Source: Myxococcales bacterium
GTDB lineage: Bacteria; Myxococcota; B64-G9
Length of the DNA stretch: 64,000 nucleotides
Direction: 5' to 3'
Assembly: GCA_012798435.1 (NCBI GenBank)
Contig: JAAZNF010000061.1
Coordinates: 51,155 to 115,154 of the forward strand
A program made the position numbers and the translations under genes. Every line of letters starts with the position of its first letter. The stretch's first letter is position 1. Of this stretch, positions 58,822-59,088 are shown piece after piece. Below the pieces are notes generated by a model. The model saw nothing but the letters and a program-made list of their open reading frames with translations, was not told the DNA's origin and searched no databases.

Positions 58822-59088
58822 ATGGGCATCCGCGCGAGGACACGATCGGCAACCCGCAGCCGCCTGCTGGAAGGGCTCTCCACGGCCGAAGCCCAGCTGC
58901 TGCGAATGAAGCATGGTTGGGGCGAGGACCTGGACGAGCCGGTGGGCCAACCGGCGGCCTCTCTATCGGCGGAGTGTCGCCGCCGTGTCATGCAGATCGA
59001 GGATCGGGTGCTCGCCCGCGCCCGCGGCGAGGACCTCGACGAAGGTTCGGTAAAAAGCAAGATCATCCGCCGCCTCCGCAAACGCTAA
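58822..59088 (+). CDS. Small protein resembling sigma-70 region 4 (88 aa)
   Basis: AGGAGG 5 nt upstream of the ATG at 58822; LEGLSTAEAQLLRMKHGWG...RRRVMQIEDRVLARAR aligns over ~52 aa with RpoD region 4. Confidence 0.65.
   Translation: MGIRARTRSATRSRLLEGLSTAEAQLLRMKHGWGEDLDEPVGQPAASLSAECRRRVMQIEDRVLARARGEDLDEGSVKSKIIRRLRKR

Follow-up and report, generated by a model that had tools for sequence, protein, structure and literature searches.

A widespread small protein of Myxococcota with apparent descent from region 4 of the primary sigma factor

A short open reading frame within a 64,000-nucleotide stretch of DNA from a Myxococcales bacterium (hereafter the window) raises the question of what a free-standing relative of sigma-70 region 4 might do in a cell if it can no longer read promoters. 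The original prediction described an 88-amino-acid protein with a strong ribosome-binding site, preceded by a methyltransferase gene and followed by AT-rich DNA, and each of these descriptions holds. Translation yields the expected product, MGIRARTRSATRSRLLEGLSTAEAQLLRMKHGWGEDLDEPVGQPAASLSAECRRRVMQIEDRVLARARGEDLDEGSVKSKIIRRLRKR, from an ATG start codon with AGGAGGGA located 3 bases 5′ of it, and this start is backed by seven homologues whose N-termini line up on the same methionine. The methyltransferase gene directly upstream is real, as judged by profile matches, and the GC content falls to 0.40-0.54 across about 59050-59350 versus 0.59-0.71 within the gene. The features of the locus are as follows, where f1 denotes the bacterial family of the window genome.

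58155..58712, plus strand: SAM methyltransferase gene (profile matches; a neighbour in 7 of 8 f1 loci)
58699..58713, plus strand: extended −35 motif GGCCAAAAACTTGAC (alignment; conserved upstream of all eight f1 members)
58709..58737, plus strand: sigma-70-type promoter, TTGACG - 17 - TATCGT (pattern search; kept in relatives)
58811..58818, plus strand: ribosome-binding site AGGAGGGA (sequence; kept in relatives)
58822..59088, plus strand, stop included: stand-alone sigma-4-like protein of 88 amino acids (translation, homologues and profiles)

The gene appears to be equipped with its own expression signals. A search for the TTGACG-17-TATCGT promoter gives one site where 0.2 are expected, and alignment reveals that both promoter and ribosome-binding site are kept among the f1 relatives. 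TTGAC-N15-20-TAnnnT sites are also present upstream of most members in other families. The extended −35 motif is rare, with one or two sites per genome in a genome-wide pattern search. The motif GGYCARAAACTTGAC is also found 5′ of three other genes, which rules it out as a gene-specific operator, and we therefore read it as what may be a strong promoter form particular to f1. Of these three sites (L162, G002:C5:27218-27232; L171, G007:C124:27754-27768; L172, G006:C398:9343-9357), two lie ahead of genes that look PilZ-like by eye, in one genome each, and one lies ahead of a further small open reading frame in a third genome. No Rfam match was found near the gene.

Taken as a single sequence, the protein bears only a weak resemblance to RpoD region 4. 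When searched against the PDB with phmmer, its best E value is 0.0096, with 27 of the 28 matches being RpoD or SigA chains and all falling in region 4, and the NCBIfam model RpoD_Cterm is matched at E 0.021. No Pfam domain is detected in the open reading frame, and a scan of the genome with PF04545 misses it. The addition of relatives makes the similarity decisive. A profile of alignment A1, which combines the window protein with its same-family relatives, finds RpoD/SigA region 4 among PDB sequences at E=1.6e-8 (hmmsearch) and nothing else below 0.9, and profile-profile comparison of A1 with RpoD region 4 (hhalign) gives E=6e-14. With the 34-member alignment A4, region-4 matches reach E=4e-13 by hmmsearch, and hhalign reports a probability of 98.7 and E=4.4e-16. 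All profile and profile-profile matches are to RpoD/SigA region 4, and 18 of the 34 members individually match the NCBIfam RpoD C-terminal model (best 4.4e-7). Profile searching, the first of two checks on which the original prediction had been staked, therefore returns the sigma-4 similarity it called for, and chance resemblance is ruled out by these searches. Judged by sequence, the small protein descends from region 4, through which the main sigma factor, RpoD, reads the −35 element.

The homology with primary sigma region 4 (RpoD/SigA; Pfam Sigma70_r4, PF04545) spans about 62 residues and includes the H2 motif L..rE..VlRMr.G and an I-E pair in H4. The family differs from this domain in standing alone, in having a degenerate helix-turn-helix (HTH) whose −35-reading residues are lost, and in carrying a new basic C-terminal motif. 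Region 2 is absent from the 88-amino-acid frame, and hence the joining of region 2 to region 4 is absent as well. Residues of the 34 members, which are all 84-117 amino acids long, were mapped onto E. coli sigma70 numbering through a MAFFT alignment. The window protein divides as follows.

58876..58920, plus strand: residues 19-33, LSTAEAQLLRMKHGW, equivalent of region 4.1 and helix H2; the best-conserved part
58921..58977, plus strand: residues 34-52, degenerate HTH in which H3 and the turn are replaced by a loop (alignment; loop between helices in the AF2 model)
58978..59025, plus strand: residues 53-68, RRRVMQIEDRVLARAR, H4 equivalent (alignment)
59053..59085, plus strand: residues 78-88, basic C-terminal motif KSKIIRRLRKR at the place of sigma H5 (alignment; AF2 helix 77-87)

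Conservation is strikingly uneven along these segments. Identity to the RpoD consensus is 59% in H2 (552-564), 23% in H3, 20% in H5 and 11% in H1, and it is 13% across the turn and the first half of H4, where the −35 element is read. Near-invariant residues are R560 (33/34), M561 (32/34), G564 (33/34) and E591 (34/34), the last of which corresponds to E60 of the window protein; the other −35 readers of H4 are mostly changed in the family. At the positions that contact the −35 element or the DNA backbone in sigma-4/DNA structures, the sigma70 residue is kept as follows: R554 in 7 of 34 members, R562 in 25, T583 in 5, R584 in 12, E585 in 3, R586 in 3, R588 in 5, Q589 in 2 and K593 in none. An HTH with its −35-reading residues (R584, E585, Q589 and neighbours) is not found in the family, and H3 is a loop in the window protein. 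The prediction that the central HTH helix is lost is thus correct for the window protein and its closest relatives, but does not extend to every member, as some outside this group keep an HTH remnant (LEQVGQ). Where sigma70 has H5, members share an amphipathic, basic motif, KxKI(I/V)xxL(K/R)x(K/R), that retains hydrophobic residues at H5 positions 607 and 610.

Predicted structures, the second check named in the original prediction, are of low confidence. In the AF2 model of the window protein, four helices (residues 4-16, 21-31, 50-67 and 77-87) follow one another as H1, H2, H4 and H5; a loop takes the position of H3, and the helices do not pack compactly. A second member gives the same helix pattern (pTM 0.37 and 0.34 for the two models, pLDDT 65-69). 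Region 4 of E. coli sigma, in isolation, is intrinsically disordered and remains so until it is bound (PMC4236625), and such weak stand-alone models are consistent with this behavior. Foldseek lists mostly sigma chains, all non-significant with E of 0.9 or more, and this list is not independent support because Foldseek also uses amino-acid similarity.

Relatives are present in 7 of the 8 other same-family genomes searched, with 34-43% identity and E values of 5e-9 to 3e-11. When a divergent member (P0002, from genome G023) served as query, short open reading frames were found across the phylum, and roughly 160 of the 195 Myxococcota genomes searched carry the gene, a count taken from the profile-search table with individual matches partly inspected. 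The conservation in related genomes that the original prediction proposed to check is therefore extensive. The usual pattern in the 195 genomes is two matches each, one to a short frame and one to full-length RpoD, and the family is single-copy and near-universal in Myxococcota. The short gene is missing from a number of draft genomes and from all eight genomes of family f18 (G033, G036, G039, G046, G048 and G191-G193). The f18 genomes are mostly small (0.3-1.8 Mb), and 7 of the 8 have a match in the RpoD range. The profile, run against 249 Pseudomonadota genomes with a cut-off of E 1e-13, found no short frame; the ten matches all lie in open frames of 616-681 amino acids (RpoD).

The gene is under purifying selection, with dN/dS of 0.11-0.37 at dS of 0.02-0.56 in close pairs. 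Its conservation and dN/dS rule out a pseudogene or rpoD fragment. No Pfam or NCBIfam model covers the family, and a literature search, confined for the most part to papers open without subscription, found no paper on it. Within that scope the family appears new, as a version of a known domain that extends across the phylum. The phages and plasmids searched gave no match, and an origin from either was rejected on that basis. The one viral_contigs match (L195:280-1035; IMGVR_UViG_3300033571_002236) is a 251-amino-acid phage protein whose RpoD-like region 4 is intact and which has no obvious region 2 by eye, making it a possible phage stand-alone sigma-4 protein.

What function could such a protein serve? 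The argument for a role is drawn from selective conservation only. Retention of H2, loss of DNA reading and gain of a basic tail are together best explained by a protein-binding sigma-4 mimic, and we infer that the likeliest role is docking on the beta-flap of RNA polymerase (RNAP) or on the partners of sigma-4, with promoters left unread. We give somewhat less than an even chance to the full proposal, in which RpoD region 4 was duplicated and reshaped into a separate small protein that mimics sigma-4 on such surfaces. The duplication would have occurred early in Myxococcota evolution, and the product would adopt the fold of a trimmed sigma-4, possibly on binding only. Its conserved H2 face would dock on the beta-flap or another sigma-4-binding surface, while the basic tail would contact DNA, RNA or RNAP. 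Engagement of sigma70 region 4 could thereby be modulated, with effects on the choice of promoter, on escape from it or on pausing, although no −35 element would be recognised.

Among possible partners the beta-flap stands out most, and binding to it is plausible. Sigma-4 touches the flap through residues in or near H1, H2 and H5, and DNA through its HTH (PMC2988021). Of the flap-contacting parts, H2 is conserved, but the low identities of H1 and H5 count against flap docking, and the conservation of H2 could reflect a folding core alone. The low-confidence AF2 models and non-significant Foldseek matches also weigh against the full proposal. Retention of one copy across nearly the whole phylum would suggest a probable role as an undescribed RNAP accessory factor. 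The more specific version, in which a freed sigma region 4, stripped of promoter reading, occupies the beta-flap across essentially the whole of Myxococcota, at initiation or during elongation, is possible but on the unlikely side. Of the original interpretation, sigma-4 ancestry and the loss of the DNA-reading HTH stand, supported by profiles and residue mapping; the ‘anti-sigma or appropriator’ role is speculation.

Two phage systems are instructive here. T4 AsiA is also small (about 90 amino acids), and the sigma-4/beta-flap junction where it acts is the site proposed for the family. However, AsiA is not a sigma-4 homologue: the family profile matches chain 1TLH_B, which is sigma-4 in complex with AsiA, rather than AsiA, and no AsiA chain appears among the PDB matches of the single-sequence and profile searches. 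Beta-flap binders such as P7 of phage Xp10 occupy the flap tip and displace sigma-4 (PMC3985653). By analogy, flap occupation of this kind may be how the family works, although P7, a phage protein, did not turn up among the relatives.

If the protein does bind RNAP, Myxococcota would carry a cellular, near-universal sigma-4 mimic, a strategy otherwise seen chiefly in phage inhibitors and in a single two-component switch, and a general transcription factor would be added to a model group (Myxococcus). Should it not bind RNAP, the protein still belongs to an undescribed family of small proteins, present nearly throughout the phylum and clear in its evolutionary origin.

Other readings of the same conservation pattern must be weighed. 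Sigma-4 is gripped by proteins such as Rsd, AsiA or WhiB, and the small protein might serve as a decoy that binds anti-sigma or activator proteins of this kind and so frees sigma70. The same conserved surface would serve, and sigma mimicry by a degenerate sigma-like domain is established for PhyR, which uses its domain for protein binding rather than promoter reading. PhyR differs in combining an ECF-like domain with a receiver and in binding NepR, none of which has a counterpart by Pfam in the window protein. No partner gene was found adjoining, and H4, which several sigma-4 binders use, has diverged. We consider a decoy unlikely. We judge equally improbable that the sigma-4 scaffold was reused for a basic nucleic-acid- or ribosome-associated protein whose Lys-rich tail attaches to DNA or RNA with no specificity for promoters. 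The sequence-reading residues are indeed lost, most members have a net positive charge, and the last 15 residues of most carry +3 to +7; yet four members are net negative, and the H2 segment is among the best-conserved parts along with the tail.

Far less probable is a split sigma factor, in which the small protein would provide the region 4 that a region-2-only sigma protein lacks. Two-part sigma factors exist, as with SigO/RsoA in Bacillus, where part of a sigma factor is likewise encoded by a separate small gene. Unlike that system, the window genome has no orphan region-2 partner: all 22 of its region-2 frames carry a same-frame region-4 match (weak in two), which disfavors this explanation, as does the loss of the −35-reading residues. 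Finally, a relic of rpoD duplication or a functionless chance frame, to which the weak single-sequence similarity might point, is refuted in practice by phylum-wide conservation, the gene's own promoter and ribosome-binding site, its dN/dS and the family-specific motif.

Gene context does not help to choose a function for the proposed sigma-4 mimic because the neighbours vary from clade to clade and include no gene of the transcription machinery. No single neighbour recurs throughout the phylum, and the gene therefore looks like its own transcription unit. In the window, it is preceded by purM-like (by eye), weakly FAD-oxidoreductase-like and cNMP-binding-like genes and by the SAM methyltransferase gene, and is followed by the AT-richer gap and then by large open reading frames (59397-61634 and the next), the first of which has no Pfam match. 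The methyltransferase is genomic context, and a functional partnership is only putative. Its match to NF041081, an archaeal-type protein-lysine N-methyltransferase model, scores below the model's cut-off (E 4.6e-9). Gene order in f1 is cNMP-binding gene, methyltransferase, sigma-4-like gene and a HAMP/MCP-signalling membrane protein gene; in six f1 genomes the last immediately follows the sigma-4-like gene, and it is absent in the window genome. Myxococcaceae-like genomes instead have a lipoprotein-like gene upstream and a convergent 523-amino-acid gene downstream. A conserved 78-amino-acid protein (VFSATKARER...VQVTQSSDEEFHCLTISILYEE), with no Pfam match, is encoded near the locus in five f1 loci. 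Representative coordinates of these two f1 neighbours are given below.

L138:5547-7760: HAMP/MCP gene (relatives in L115, L135-L137 and L139)
L139:9628-9861, minus strand: 78-amino-acid protein (relatives in L115, L135, L136 and L140)
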